A stretch of DNA of 35,790 bases from Acidobacteriota bacterium (lineage in GTDB: Bacteria; Acidobacteriota; Terriglobia; Terriglobales; Acidobacteriaceae). Under the pieces are notes generated by a model that saw only the letters and a list, made by a program, of their open reading frames with translations, searched no databases and was not told the DNA's origin. Positions 1 through 35,435 of this stretch are shown in pieces. Where the stretch lies: positions 1 to 35,790 of the forward strand of contig JAJXWS010000032.1 in the NCBI GenBank assembly GCA_021781495.1, in the 5' to 3' direction. Both the position numbers and the translations under genes were made by a program. Each line of letters opens with the position of its first letter. Within the stretch, counting starts at the first letter, position 1.

Positions 1-1891
1 ACTCGTCAGGAGCCTCGATTTCGACCTTCATGACCGGCTCTAGCAGGCAGGGCTTGGCCAGTTCCATGCACTTGCGGAAAGCAAGGCGGCCCGCCATCTT
101 GAACGACATTTCGTTTGAGTCCACGTCATGATAGCTGCCGTCGTAGACGGTCACCTTGAAGTCAACGACCGGATAGCCGGCCAGGTAGCCGCGCGCAGCA
201 GACTCGACGATGCCCTTTTCCACGGCAGGAATGAACTGCCGCGGAATGGCTCCGCCGAAGACCTCGTTGGCAAACTCAAAGCCGCCGCCGCGGGCCAGCG
301 GCTCCATGCGAATCTTGCAGTCGCCAAACTGCCCATGGCCGCCGGTCTGCTTCTTGTGGCGGCCCTGCGCGTCGGCCTTGCCGCGGATGGTCTCGCGATA
401 GGGCACCTTGGGCGCCTTCAGCGTCACCTCGGCGTGGTAGCGCTTCTTCAGGCGGCTCACGATGGTCTCAATGTGCTGCTGGCCGGCACCGGCGATGAGG
501 AACTCGTTCGTCATCGGGTCGCGATAGAAGCGGATGAGCAGGTCCTCCTCCATCAGCTTGTGGATTGCGGGGGCCAGCTTGTCCTCGTCGGCGCGGCTCT
601 TCGGCTCAATGGCGTAGGTCATGGCGGGTTCGGGCATGGTAGCCGCGTCCACCAGGATCTCCGCGCCCTTCTGTCCCAGCGTGTCGCCGGTCAGGGTTTC
701 ACGCAGTTTGGCCACGGCGCCCAGGTCGCCGGCGTGCAGCTCCGGTACCTCCACCGCCTTGCGGCCCTGCATCACGCTCAGGTGTGCAAACCGCTCCTGG
801 CTGCGGCGGGCATAGTTCTCCAGCGTGGCGTCGTTCTTGATCACGCCGCTGATGACCTTGAAGAAGCTGATGCGCCCCGCAAACGGGTCGCTCATGGTCT
901 TGAATACGGCAACCGCGACAGGCTCCGCGTCGTCCACCTTGCGGAAGCTGATGCCGCTGTCAGAAGCCTCGGCCGAGCTGCCGTTGGCCACCGCGGCCTG
1001 CAAGGCGGGCGTCTTTACGGCGATGGGCGCGCGCTCAATCGGCGCCGGAGCGTAGACCTTCAGAAAGTCCAGCAGGTGGTCGGTCGCCATGTTCGCCAGT
1101 CCGCTCACAAACAGCACCGGGAAGATGCGGTCTTCGCGGATGGCCTCATGCAGTGCGGTGATCAGGTGCTGCTCGGGAATGGTGCCCTCGGCAAAGAACT
1201 CCTCCATCAGCTCGTCCTTGCCCTCGGCTACCAGCTCCACCAGCGCCTCATGCGCGGCCTTGGCCGGGCCTGCCAGCGCGGCGGGAATCTCGCCAATCTT
1301 GCCGCGGCCGTCGCCCCCGGCGGTATAGAAAAAGGCCTCCATCGTCACCAGGTCCACCACGCCGTGAAAGCCGTCAGCGTCTGATATGGGCAACTGCACC
1401 GGCACGCACTGGCGTCCCCAGCGGTCATGCAAATCTTCAATCAGCGCGCTCAACCCGTTCTGGCCGCCCGCCTTGGGGTGGTCCATCTGGTTGATGACCA
1501 CCACGCGGGGCACGTTGGCCTCCTCGGCATACTTCCACACGCGCTCGGTCACCGGCTCCACGCCGCTCTGCGCGTTCACCACCACCATGGCCGTCTCCAC
1601 CGGCAGCAGCGCGGCGCGCGCCTCGTGGGAGAACATGTGGAAGCCGGGCGTATCCACAAGGTTGATCTTCGCGCCCTGCCACTCGGCAAAGGCCACGGCG
1701 TTCTGCATGGTAATGCCGCGGGCCACCTCTTCTTCGTCATAGGCGGTCGCGGCGGAGCCATCTTCCACGCGGCCCTGCGTGGGAGTCATCTTTGCGGCAT
1801 GCAGCAGAGCGGCGATCAATGTGGATTTGCCGCTGTGCGCATGCCCCACTACAGCTACGTTGCGGATCTCACTTCCCTGGTACGTTTTCAT
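1..1891 (-). CDS. fusA: Elongation factor G-like GTPase (FusA2-type), C-terminus cut by window edge
   Basis: This is a translational GTPase of the EF-G family, with about 630 residues visible of a usual 690-700. The N-terminus carries the P-loop GHAHSGKST (residues 16-24), the G3 motif DTPGF (from D80) and the G4 motif NQMD (from N134). Domain IV has the EF-G hallmark KKQTGGHGQFGD. The start ATG at 1891 is preceded by a GAGGAG ribosome-binding site about 8 nt away. The switch regions differ from canonical EF-G: G3 reads DTPGFHMFSHE instead of DTPGHVDF, and G4 has Q where EF-G normally has K. This resembles the EF-G-like paralogues (FusA2 type) found beside a standard fusA. Such paralogues are known, but their role (translocation, recycling or stress translation) varies, so the exact job is uncertain. 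It is transcribed away from the window and has no partner gene visible. Confidence 0.9.
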   Translation of the reverse strand, partial: MKTYQGSEIRNVAVVGHAHSGKSTLIAALLHAAKMTPTQGRVEDGSAATAYDEEEVARGITMQNAVAFAEWQGAKINLVDTPGFHMFSHEARAALLPVETAMVVVNAQSGVEPVTERVWKYAEEANVPRVVVINQMDHPKAGGQNGLSALIEDLHDRWGRQCVPVQLPISDADGFHGVVDLVTMEAFFYTAGGDGRGKIGEIPAALAGPAKAAHEALVELVAEGKDELMEEFFAEGTIPEQHLITALHEAIREDRIFPVLFVSGLANMATDHLLDFLKVYAPAPIERAPIAVKTPALQAAVANGSSAEASDSGISFRKVDDAEPVAVAVFKTMSDPFAGRISFFKVISGVIKNDATLENYARRSQERFAHLSVMQGRKAVEVPELHAGDLGAVAKLRETLTGDTLGQKGAEILVDAATMPEPAMTYAIEPKSRADEDKLAPAIHKLMEEDLLIRFYRDPMTNEFLIAGAGQQHIETIVSRLKKRYHAEVTLKAPKVPYRETIRGKADAQGRHKKQTGGHGQFGDCKIRMEPLARGGGFEFANEVFGGAIPRQFIPAVEKGIVESAARGYLAGYPVVDFKVTVYDGSYHDVDSNEMSFKMAGRLAFRKCMELAKPCLLEPVMKVEIEAPDE

Positions 1892-32198: not shown

Positions 32199-35141
32199 TT
32201 AGTTCACATTGAGTGTCAACTGTACAGAGTCGGTAACGGCGGAGTTGCTCGAGTCGGTTCCGATCACGGTAAGCGGGTAGCTGCCCTTGGCCACCACGCC
32301 GCCGCCGCCACCACCACCGCTGGTGCTGGAACCGCCGCCGCAGCCGACAGCCATGCTGGCCACGCCCAGCAGCAGGACGCAACCCATCATGGTGAGCCAC
32401 TTGGCGCGCCGCTTGCGCAGCCCCAGCAGCAGGAAGCCGCCCAGCGCCGCCGCGCCGATGGGTACAGCCTTACGCGCCGGCGTGTTTGCGGGAGCCGCCG
32501 GCGTGCCACCGGAGGAAGATTTCACGAACAGATGCCTGGTTCCCGGCTGCGAGGCCGTGGTTGCGCTGCTGCACGCGCTTTGCGAGGTGTACAGCGTCAG
32601 CGTAGCCGTGGCCGTTCCGTTGGCAGGGACAGCCGTGTTGGACAGCGTGTAGCAGCCATACGTCTGCAGAGATGTGCTGGAGGTGGACAGGCTGAACTTC
32701 ACCGTTCCGGAGTAGCCCAGCGTCGAGGTCAGGGTGAGGGTCGACGTACCGGAGCTGCCCTGGTTCACGTTCATGGTGGTGGGGTTTGCCGAGAGCGTGA
32801 AGCCCGGCGCCTGCACCTGCACGGAGGTTGCTCCCGTTGAGGCTGCAAAGATGCCATTGCCCGTGTACTGCGCCACCACGGAGTGTGCTCCCCCCGTCGT
32901 GAACGTCGTGGTGAAGGTGGCCGTGCCGTTGGAGCTCAGGGTGAGGGTCTGCGTGGACCCGCCGCTGCTGTACGTCGTGCCGCCGCCGTCGATGGAGACA
33001 TTCACCGTGCCGCTGGAGACGGTGCTGCCACCCACCAGGGAAACGGTGACGGTGAAGGTGACCGGCACGTTGACGTTGATCGAGGAGCTGGAGGCCGAAA
33101 CCGTCGTGGTGGTGCCCATCAGCGAGGTGGTGGCCGCGGGCCAGGTGGTGGCCGCTGCCAGAACGCCCAGGTCCACGGAGCCAAGGCCCGTCACCGGGTC
33201 ATAGCCGGCGTTGGTGTTGTAGTGGGTGGTGCTGCCGCTGGTGCTGCTGCAGTAGGTTGACCCGGCAAGGCAGTAGTTGTTGCCGCTGGTGATGTCGTGG
33301 AACGCGGCCGCATAGGTGGTGCTGTTGGAGGCCAGCGAGTAGAGCGTGGGGTTCACCAGTCCCTGTCCCGTGGTGTAGCCACGCGCCTCGCCGATAAGGG
33401 CCAGCATGCCCGCAAAGATCGGTGTGGCAAAGCTGGTGCCACCGGCCAGCGTCAGGTAGTTGCCGCCGGAGACCGTGTCGCGGAAGCTGGCGCCGTTGGT
33501 GCAGCTGGAGGCCTGCGCCGCGGAAGTGGTCGAGCCCGTGTACCATGCGCTCGGATCGCTGGTGCAGTAGAGATACGCTACATAGTTCGGTGAAGAGAAG
33601 AGCGAGATATCCGGCACGTCGCGCTTGCCGTCTGCTGGAATGCCCGGAACGCCCGCCTGCCAGTTGGGCTTGCTGAACAGCGTGCTCACGCCGCCGCCGG
33701 TGGCGCTCAGGCCGTTGCTGCTGCTGTCATCGTTCCACGCCACCTCTGGCATGTACTTGAGAGCCGAGGAGATGAGATCGGTTCCGCTCGCAGATTGCCA
33801 GTAGGCGGAGCCGGCGGTGTAGTAGGCCGAGTTGGCCTGCGAAATCTCAGTCCCGCCTACGCCCAGGACATACGGGCTGCTGGCGGGGTAGTTCACGGCC
33901 AGCGCTTCCTGGACGGCCAGCGAGGGGCTGGTGGTGGTCGGGCTCTGGAAACAGGCCGTCGAGCCCTGGTCGCCGGATGCGGAAAGGATCGTCTGCCCCT
34001 GCGCCGAGGCCTGCTGCAGGATGGGTTCCATCTGCGTCTGGAAGTTGTTCAGCAGAGACTCGCAGGCGCCGTAGCTCACGCTGATGATGTTGGCCAGCTT
34101 CTCGTCCACGGTGAAGCCGATTGAGTCAAAGATGCCGCTGGTGGTGGTGCTGTTGCCGGTGAACACAAAGTAGATGGTGGCTCCGGGCGCAATGGCGCTG
34201 GACCACTCCAGGTCGAGGTCGGACTCGGACTCATCTCCCTGGTAGATGGTGGCGACGCCGGACGTGGGCACCAGGACCTTGATCGGATCCTTGACCGGCA
34301 TCCCGGCCGCCTTCTGGAAGTTCTCCACGTCGCTCAGGCTCACGTCCGACTGGCCCATGATGGCGATGCTCTGGCCGGTGCCGTCAATTCCGGTGCTGGT
34401 CAGTGGGGCAAAGTCGTACACCGTCTTGATGTCCTGCGGGGCAAAGAACACGTTGCCGCTCAGGCTGGAGGTAAACGCCGGGCGAGCCTTCTGAATAAGG
34501 TCCGCGCTGGCCGGCAGGCGCATGGAGCGCGGCTTGAAGTCGCTGAGGTTGCGGATGCCCGCCACCGTGGAGGCAAACGCGGTGGGCAGCGAAATCTCGG
34601 TCGAAGGCGAGATGTGCTGCTTGCCGTCCACCTTGTAGTAGTGCATCTCGGTGCGGAAGGCCTGCTCCACCTGCCCCGCGGTGCCGGAGAAGCGGATGGA
34701 GTTGCGGGCGCGGGCGACAGCGTCGATGCTGAACCCCTGCTGTTGCAGCCAGCCCGTCACCTGGTCAATGTCCGACTGCGCCATGCCGAACTGCGCGCCA
34801 AACTGCTCCGGCGAGAGCCACTTGTGAAAGAGCGGCGAGGCCGGATCCTGCTGCGCCGCCAGCAGGGCATTCAGCGCCGACTGCTGCATCGGGGTGCGGT
34901 TGAACACCAGCGTCATGCCCACCATGGGGGTGTTGGCGGGCACGCGGCCGGAATCGAACTCCGGCTGGGCCACCATGGGCCGCGAACCCTTCACGGGAGC
35001 CACTTCCGCGCTGGAGATGCCGTCCTGGATGCGGGCAAGTGGGGTCTGCGCCGCAAGTGTGGTCGCCGCAAGGGCGCATGCGGCCAGCCACCCGCAAATT
35101 CCAAGCCGCTTTTGCTGGATGAGTGCAAGCAGATTCGTCAT
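32199..35141 (-). CDS. Sedolisin (S53) protease with Ig-like repeats and C-terminal anchor-like module
   Basis: This 980-residue secreted acid protease has a signal peptide (GWLAACALAATTLAAQ). A pro-kumamolisin activation domain follows (about residues 50-200, FHKWLSPEQFGAQFGMAQSDIDQV). The S53 catalytic domain carries Glu306 and Asp310 in ESDLDLEW, oxyanion Asp391 in SASGDQGS and Ser570 in GGTSFATP. Ca-binding DPVTGLGSVDL closes it. Then come Ser/Thr-rich Ig-like repeats (TVSASSSSINVNVPVTFTVTV, FTLSANPTTMNVNQGSSGTSTLTL). The tail has a hydrophobic stretch (893-908), RKRR (909-912), a second hydrophobic stretch (915-933), Cys934-GGG, a Gly run and a final beta-strand. ATG 35141 has GAGG 6 nt upstream; ATG 35147 is the alternative. 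Confidence 0.93.
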   Translation of the reverse strand: MTNLLALIQQKRLGICGWLAACALAATTLAAQTPLARIQDGISSAEVAPVKGSRPMVAQPEFDSGRVPANTPMVGMTLVFNRTPMQQSALNALLAAQQDPASPLFHKWLSPEQFGAQFGMAQSDIDQVTGWLQQQGFSIDAVARARNSIRFSGTAGQVEQAFRTEMHYYKVDGKQHISPSTEISLPTAFASTVAGIRNLSDFKPRSMRLPASADLIQKARPAFTSSLSGNVFFAPQDIKTVYDFAPLTSTGIDGTGQSIAIMGQSDVSLSDVENFQKAAGMPVKDPIKVLVPTSGVATIYQGDESESDLDLEWSSAIAPGATIYFVFTGNSTTTSGIFDSIGFTVDEKLANIISVSYGACESLLNNFQTQMEPILQQASAQGQTILSASGDQGSTACFQSPTTTSPSLAVQEALAVNYPASSPYVLGVGGTEISQANSAYYTAGSAYWQSASGTDLISSALKYMPEVAWNDDSSSNGLSATGGGVSTLFSKPNWQAGVPGIPADGKRDVPDISLFSSPNYVAYLYCTSDPSAWYTGSTTSAAQASSCTNGASFRDTVSGGNYLTLAGGTSFATPIFAGMLALIGEARGYTTGQGLVNPTLYSLASNSTTYAAAFHDITSGNNYCLAGSTYCSSTSGSTTHYNTNAGYDPVTGLGSVDLGVLAAATTWPAATTSLMGTTTTVSASSSSINVNVPVTFTVTVSLVGGSTVSSGTVNVSIDGGGTTYSSGGSTQTLTLSSNGTATFTTTFTTGGAHSVVAQYTGNGIFAASTGATSVQVQAPGFTLSANPTTMNVNQGSSGTSTLTLTSTLGYSGTVKFSLSTSSTSLQTYGCYTLSNTAVPANGTATATLTLYTSQSACSSATTASQPGTRHLFVKSSSGGTPAAPANTPARKAVPIGAAALGGFLLLGLRKRRAKWLTMMGCVLLLGVASMAVGCGGGSSTSGGGGGGGVVAKGSYPLTVIGTDSSNSAVTDSVQLTLNVN

Positions 35142-35435
35142 AGCCATCCTCGTTTTACAAAGGGTTAAGAGCCACGCCAGACTACCTCCGGCCAGCAAGC
35201 CGGATCGGCGAAAGGATTATTACATTTCTCCGGGGGTACGGCCGGAGGGGAATCATGCACAATCAACGCCGGCTAACCAGGCACTGCGTGTCTGCCGGGC
35301 CGGTCCGCTCCTAGACAAAATACACCTGTTCGTATGCTTAGACTCCAATTTACGAACAAAGTTGTACGAATTGCCGGAGCATTGCGGGACAAAAAATTTG
35401 GACGCTGTCGGGATAACGGACAGCTGGAGAGGGAT
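35142..35435. other. Intergenic region upstream of the S53 gene
   Basis: About 290 bases, visibly more AT-rich than the genes beside it. It contains GTTCGTA (35328-35334), TACGAAC (35351-35357) and TACGAAT (35365-35371), an inverted pair plus a third copy that could be regulator sites. On the minus strand AATAAT near 35217-35222 could serve as a -10 box, but no -35 box fits. No gene is supported. Confidence 0.4.

Follow-up and report, generated by a model that had tools for sequence, protein, structure and literature searches.

A putative internal lipoprotein-type anchor within the terminal Ig-like domain of secreted acidobacterial proteins

Introduction

The question addressed here is what the C-terminal tail of a secreted peptidase from an Acidobacteriaceae bacterium does. 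The gene lies in a stretch of 35,790 nucleotides (contig JAJXWS010000032.1 of assembly GCA_021781495.1; this whole stretch is called the window below), where it occupies positions 32199..35141 of the minus strand, counted from an ATG and with the stop included, and encodes an S53-type peptidase (sedolisin; Pfam Pro-kuma_activ 5.3e-30, Peptidase_S8 7.6e-12). An earlier, sequence-only reading of the window had pointed out that, after its Ig-like repeats, the protein ends in a module with a lipobox-like Cys that looked suited to anchoring or sorting. The tail exists as described, is widespread, and already figures in NCBI's catalogue as a putative anchor (NCBIfam NF058595). Sequence comparison and structure prediction indicate that its hydrophobic hairpin is an insertion in the terminal Ig-like domain, whose fold is completed by the two last strands of the protein, a feature absent from the earlier account. 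On these grounds we think that the tail probably serves as a lipoprotein-type membrane anchor, internal to the chain and set inside an Ig-like domain, with a Cys that would be lipidated by the general enzyme Lgt.

Results

Anatomy of the tail

Residues are numbered here from an alternative start, TTG 35198 (minus strand, like all features below; open reading frame (ORF) 32199-35198, from the translation), which gives a protein of 999 residues in which Cys953 is the Cys934 counted from ATG 35141. Conservation was evaluated in 117 distinct full-span tails, derived from 130 full-span tails among 137 matching ORFs in the fetched loci. The sequence-only reading had stated that a tail unique to this protein would speak against its proposal, and these 117 sequences show that it is not unique.

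Translation of 32199-32462 bore out the layout first described: two hydrophobic segments flank RKRR, and the second of them leads to Cys953, which is followed by a Gly-rich linker and a beta part. The hairpin is preceded by a flexible linker (residues 872-912; 32463..32585) in which the predicted local distance difference test score (pLDDT) is mostly <60. Transmembrane segment 1, read from the translation (residues 913-927, PIGAAALGGFLLLGL; 32418..32462; model helix 117-124), has a mean hydropathy of 1.5 over the 117 homologues, and is followed by the basic loop RKRRAK (residues 928-933; 32400..32417), predicted to be cytoplasmic, which has at least two Lys or Arg residues in 117/117 homologues. 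Transmembrane segment 2 (residues 934-952, WLTMMGCVLLLGVASMAVG; 32343..32399; model helix 134-152) resembles a lipoprotein signal and leads to the conserved Cys953 codon (32340..32342), the predicted lipidation site. Beyond it lie a linker (residues 954-971, GGGSSTSGGGGGGGVVAK; 32286..32339), classed as Gly/Ser-rich on its content over positions +1 to +6, and the two strands that close the terminal Ig-like domain (residues 972-999, GSYPLTVIGTDSSNSAVTDSVQLTLNVN, then stop; 32202..32285), assigned from the structure model and the rejoining test described below. The final beta-strand of the first description is thus two C-terminal strands (model residues 174-184 and 191-200).

The profile match ended 0-5 residues short of the stop in 117/117 tails. 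Cys was present in all 117, preceded by Gly, Ala or Ser in 115/117 and followed by Gly in 86/117 and by Ser in 20/117. Both Cys codons are in use (TGC 96, TGT 21), and therefore it is the residue itself that is kept. By alignment column, Cys was found in 114/117 tails and in 36/37 rows of alignment A5, and the four exceptions are alignment slips, since Cys lies within two positions in all four. In a 61-sequence alignment, Cys is the sole invariant column and stands in a lipoprotein-signal-like context, which agrees with its earlier description as lipobox-like. Its frequency is somewhat favoured because the search profiles (A1, NF058595) include the Cys column, and where a tail had more than one eligible Cys (14/117) the last was always taken; a Cys-less tail scoring >40 bits would still have been recoverable.

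In the mean hydropathy profile, a strongly polar dip separates the two hydrophobic segments, and the median uncharged stretch from the last charge to Cys is 19 residues, as it is in the window. Lys and Arg averaged 3.9 in the loop, 0.4 in the 20 residues after Cys and 1.7 in the 23 residues before segment 1, a comparison that favours the loop because it was set where Lys and Arg are densest. By the positive-inside rule, a basic loop of this kind places the loop in the cytoplasm and Cys in the periplasm, provided that the carriers are exported. The window protein has an N-terminal Sec-type signal peptide (35049..35141), with a basic start, a hydrophobic core and the ending ...TTLAA, the end being judged by eye from the translation.

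Pro was found within segment 1, here counted as 19 residues, in 100/117 tails, and in segment 2, minus its last three residues, in 22/117; this excess marks a possible kink or cut site in segment 1. One subfamily (A2; L016, L017, L021, L029, L033, L034, L036, L038, L043, L048) shares the segment 1 motif YATWLPVSGLALLG, which is conserved beyond the need of a plain membrane segment.

When a rule describing the architecture was applied to background sequence (1714 ORFs in 2 Mb of sequence drawn from preset positions in eight family genomes), there were 4 matches, of which we judged two to be real tails (L083, L100) and two to be ordinary polytopic membrane proteins. The tail architecture exceeds chance expectation, and we are nearly certain that it is as described here.

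The hairpin interrupts the terminal Ig-like domain

Upstream of the tail, a bacterial Ig-like domain, Big_3_5, covers residues 700-795 (32814..33101; Pfam PF16640, 1.3e-11). The next Ig-like domain begins with residues 799-871 (32586..32804; strands inside model residues 2-73), which matched a profile of uninterrupted Ig-like domains with an independent E-value (i-E) of 4.2e-8. This profile was built from 35 uninterrupted domains, none with three basic residues in a run; of 30 inspected, most were upstream repeats of tail-bearing proteins. Its N-terminal half was matched in 116/117 proteins, and both halves (i-E <0.01) in 62/117. In these 62 proteins, the N-half match ended at a median position of 74 in the 99-position profile and the C-half match started at 69; the stretch separating the two halves in the protein had a median length of 64 residues. 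When the residues after Cys were shuffled, C-half matches fell to 0/117. An uninterrupted relative from Micromonospora (L180) runs continuously across the insertion point.

The two halves were then rejoined in 116 proteins, the one without an N-half match being dropped and the C-half being cut at the G-x-aromatic start of its strand. Rejoined domains scored a mean of 52.1 bits. The mean was 38.8 when the N-half stood by itself, 38.0 when the strands joined to it had been shuffled and 39.9 when an unrelated segment took their place; the rejoined domain scored above all ten of its shuffles in 108/116 proteins and reached the profile end in 93. For the window, rejoining raised the score from 32.4 bits for the N-half to 45.6, and none of ten shuffled copies exceeded 36.6. 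These tests supersede others in which a background still containing tail copies gave both halves in 49/117 proteins, and in which a profile of three uninterrupted domains and a crude splice gave a gain of >3 bits in 41/117 proteins versus 1/117 when shuffled (mean 21.4 vs 19.5 bits), with no gain for the window.

An AlphaFold model of the window tail, made with 53 sequences, had a mean pLDDT of 74.9 and a predicted template modelling score (pTM) of 0.56, and contained seven strands up to residue 73, helices at 117-124 and 134-152, and strands at 174-184 and 191-200; in the blocks from residue 171 on, mean pLDDT was 88-96. Over model range 1..201 it aligned with one continuous stretch, residues 405-502, of PDB 2ber (Z 11.9, 95 residues, 1.8 A), and this match across both parts indicates that together they form one ordinary Ig-like domain. 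A model of a second homologue (L145) gave the same picture, with Z 13.3 to 8jmw and 13.1 to 2ber. Foldseek scores for the window model were weaker (best E 7.6e-4, TM 0.36), which we attribute to the unmatched insert.

A catalogued family and its distribution

The earlier reading had taken the tail to be formally undescribed, and here it needs correction, because NF058595.1 ("invert_tail", lipo-invert putative C-terminal anchoring domain) already models it. The window protein scored 39 bits against a cut-off of 37, with residues 902-999 of 999 matching profile positions 16-113 of 113 up to the last residue, and 42.9 bits in the genome-wide search. The tail is thus catalogued by NCBI, and apparently unstudied: no paper using the name "lipo-invert" was found in the open-licence literature searched, in which searches on acidobacterial C-terminal sorting or anchoring brought up nothing on a tail of this type, and the accessible main text of a Granulicella proteome paper (PMC7074687) makes no mention of Ig-like proteins, lipoproteins, propellers or sedolisins. 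NF058595 and the present analysis describe the same tail. The split Ig-like domain, of which the literature searched holds no trace, is added here, the catalogued family being compared by name, so that its curators may know more.

The window's genome contains 5 tails above the NF058595 cut-off and 8 weaker matches. In the window's family (f1), 96/100 genomes matched at 1e-6, with 1-23 matches each, and 95/100 had matches above cut-off, in agreement with the earlier remark that acidobacterial Ig-like secreted proteins often end this way. In a sample of the phylum, 51/396 genomes matched at 1e-7, 49 of them above cut-off; 44 of the 51 belong to f1 and 7 come from elsewhere in the phylum, two of which (G304, G357) have strong tails. 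No f1 genome stood at the head of the list of unmatched phylum-sample genomes, in the part of that list viewed. Tail counts per genome are lower bounds, with no more than 40 candidates scored per family genome and no more than 11 per phylum-sample genome. None of 14 control genomes matched at the 1e-6 and 1e-7 thresholds; at E 0.01, weak matches appeared in 11/14, none above cut-off, and low NF058595 scores therefore carry little meaning. The scan keyed to one subfamily (A2) returned 67 loci, of which 64 are titled as Acidobacteriota groups and not all are tails; its two actinobacterial loci (L174, L180) have the Ig strands only, with no tail. The f1 tail L033 is identical to L118, which lies on a contig titled Acidobacteria, and this places f1 within the phylum.

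The strong tails of G304 and G357 (L056, L062) belong to another family, f43, and L056 has a sparse basic loop in which the Arg residues are scattered. A full tail, at the third locus not titled as Acidobacteriota, was also found on a contig labelled as an Ideonella sp. metagenome-assembled genome, a betaproteobacterium (L160), with one above cut-off in that genome, and could reflect lateral transfer or contamination.

The carriers are varied, and include peptidases, beta-propeller proteins and Ig-repeat proteins. Among 41 carriers scanned (the window protein and 40 of 45 complete ORFs, five being left out for size), 38 matched NF058595 at E 0.001, 22 had SBBP propeller repeats and 5 had Pro-kuma_activ. 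NF047494, a Leptospira family of SBBP propeller lipoproteins, was matched by 20/41 carriers at E 0.001, a figure that was not compared with the family's cut-off and may reflect the repeats alone; it is a hint that like cargo is lipid-anchored elsewhere, perhaps by different routes. Six loci (L045, L151, L152, L153, L157, L182) have a pair of genes that both end in the tail and lie on one strand within a few kilobases, and in L045, L153 and L157 the second encodes a short protein of 318-361 residues.

Comparison with N-terminal lipoproteins

The hosts' own N-terminal lipoproteins, substrates of Lgt and LspA, served as a yardstick: 35 candidates were selected by rule in 2 Mb, 23 of them with Gly, Ala or Ser at -1, a set that is small and impure, since some candidates are probably ordinary signal peptides. 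The tail resembles these proteins in having a basic start, a hydrophobic segment, a small residue, Cys and an exposed linker, and the window follows the lipoprotein layout, with RKRRAK, 19 uncharged residues and G-C. It differs in that the signal is internal (Cys953 of 999), with a transmembrane segment already ahead of it and, before that, a long exported region, and in that Gly and Ser over positions +1 to +6 are far more frequent, at 70% in the 117 modules versus 17% in the 23 host candidates. On the features compared, namely this internal position and the departure from the strict lipobox described next, the tail falls outside the class of N-terminal lipoproteins. In E. coli, Asp after the lipidated Cys is an inner-membrane retention signal; Asp directly follows Cys in 0/117 tails, and a retention signal of that type is therefore absent.

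Several observations weigh against an internal lipoprotein-type anchor. The strict lipobox [LVI][ASTVI][GAS]C was found in 26/117 tails, compared with 8/23 host candidates (p 0.29), and the window's own site, AVGC, does not conform to it. Residues that fit a lipobox poorly recur, with Gln at -3 in 24/117 tails and Pro at -2 in 21/117, figures that are inflated because many tails come from the A2 scan. A looser, PROSITE-type core was present in 66/117 tails versus 21/23 host candidates (p 0.0017). The C-half strands of the window became significant only once rejoined, and its model has low-confidence linkers and a pTM of 0.56. A further point against the anchor is that neither Lgt nor LspA is known to act on a signal inside a chain, and no such case came up in the literature searched. 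Export of the carriers is itself supported by an enrichment of signal-peptide-like starts, which lay within the first 80 codons of 41/45 complete carriers, compared with 446/844 background ORFs of at least 300 residues (p 1e-7); the rule is loose, as the background count shows, and says little for a single protein.

When the tails were thinned to 83 clusters, the strict lipobox was found in 24/83 (p 0.61 versus host) and the PROSITE-type core at -3 to -1 in 64/83, compared with 21/23 in the host set (p 0.15); against this small yardstick, the thinned tails showed no difference from the hosts' own lipoproteins.

The loose lipobox would suit a plain two-helix anchor in the inner membrane, in which nothing is cut and the Cys is unlipidated and serves in a disulfide, a metal contact or for some other purpose, and the hairpin would by itself suffice to anchor the protein. 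We consider this unlikely, because the hydrophobic residues around Cys vary while Cys alone is invariant, because Cys stands directly at the membrane exit behind a small residue in nearly all tails, and because a second invariant Cys, as a possible partner, was not found in the tail alignment. Lipidation of Cys953 is instead suggested by its context, and we regard it as likely.

Candidate enzymes

The window's genome contains one copy of LspA and two of Lgt. Among 60 family genomes, LspA was present in one copy in 55, in two copies in 2 and in none of 3 incomplete genomes, while 28/31 sampled family genomes had two or more Lgt genes. The genomes with a single Lgt (G010, G013, G214) all bear tails, so a second Lgt is not required and was rejected as a dedicated enzyme. 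Many of the sampled family genomes match the Lgt model weakly at best (~1e-32 to 1e-43), compared with ~1e-57 in G010, G013, G055 and G214. A GspE model (type II secretion) scored 533 bits, below its cut-off of 630.

Segment 1 and the Arg-rich loop resemble the hydrophobic-plus-basic end of known C-terminal sorting signals, and the tail could be a signal of this kind, similar to MYXO-CTERM or GlyGly-CTERM, for a dedicated and still unknown transpeptidase or protease that would cut segment 1, which often has Pro and Gly and where Pro is enriched relative to segment 2, and pass the protein to the surface. The tail shares features with the MYXO-CTERM tags of the myxosortase system of Myxococcota: according to PMC11980579, these tags also have an invariant Cys and no defined lipobox, together with a hydrophobic helix, an Arg cluster and an N-terminal Sec signal, and an Lgt-like step has been proposed for them. 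The same paper proposes, citing MXAN_5598, that MYXO-CTERM tags can work mid-protein, and on that basis a position before the protein's end is no argument against a sorting signal. The order of elements is nevertheless reversed, being Cys-helix-Arg in MYXO-CTERM and helix-Arg-helix-Cys followed by two strands in the present tail; with this reversed order and a chain that ends in two strands, the tail does not fit MYXO-CTERM.

The enzyme survey also argues against a sorting signal. No exosortase (PF09721) was matched in the window's genome, which is 95.75% complete, and exosortase was absent from 26/60 family genomes, 24 of which are tail-bearing; the tail is thus not assigned to the PEP-CTERM/exosortase system. 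Rhombosortase (TIGR03902) was above cut-off in 0/60 family genomes, with weaker matches in 59/60 and in 14/14 controls, and the GlyGly-CTERM/rhombosortase system is likewise not supported. Furthermore, a signal made of segment 1 and the loop leaves the invariant Cys after segment 2 and the later strands unexplained. We therefore hold a sorting signal to be somewhat less likely even than a plain two-helix anchor. The sequence-only reading had suggested looking for co-occurrence with a dedicated membrane enzyme; among LspA, Lgt, exosortase and rhombosortase, none looks dedicated, general rhomboid and CAAX-type proteases lying outside the survey.

A separate small lipoprotein, made from an internal start in the basic loop and comprising segment 2, Cys and two strands, is very improbable: although segment 2 with the loop resembles an N-terminal lipoprotein signal and the window has Met codons in segment 2, ATG or GTG was found in the loop window in 67/117 tails, compared with 62 expected from upstream windows, which is no enrichment.

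Discussion

The observations above are best accommodated, in our view, by an internal lipoprotein-type anchor, for which topology rules suggest the following course. Sec would export the protein up to segment 1, which would lodge in the inner membrane; the basic loop would remain in the cytoplasm, and segment 2 would lead back out and bring Cys to the periplasmic face. In this orientation, which is that of a lipoprotein signal peptide, the basic loop and Cys would lie on opposite sides of the membrane, and the general Lgt could add diacylglycerol to the Cys and thereby anchor the protein, with the Ig fold pinning the anchor segment to the exported part. Cleavage before Cys by LspA is possible and less certain; it would turn the last two strands into a short, N-terminally lipidated peptide, held non-covalently in the Ig fold.

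A fuller version of this scheme is tentative, and we rate it as rather doubtful. Here the ordinary Lgt and LspA would both act on the internal signal, the chain would be cut before Cys, and the two-strand lipopeptide would tether the rest of the protein non-covalently through the Ig-like fold, while another cut, close to segment 1, would release the protein from the hairpin and allow its transfer to the outer membrane or the surface. The SEA domain offers an example of a fold that is cut yet held together, and both GAIN and SEA domains are self-cutting and keep a transmembrane fragment. They would set an example of a cut chain that keeps its last strand in the fold; for the present tail, a cut is no more than a proposal, and a lipid would take the place of the transmembrane fragment as anchor. 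For the GAIN domain of adhesion receptors, a fold that is cut and yet held together is described in PMC13062082.

If a split-domain anchor of this kind is confirmed, lipoprotein enzymes would be able to act in the middle of a chain, and a beta-sandwich could serve as a clasp for a lipid. The tail could also be developed into a generally applicable means of anchoring proteins by a lipid at the C-terminal end. Since nearly all sampled genomes of the family carry it, the tail may be one of the principal ways in which these soil bacteria attach exported proteins to the cell envelope.

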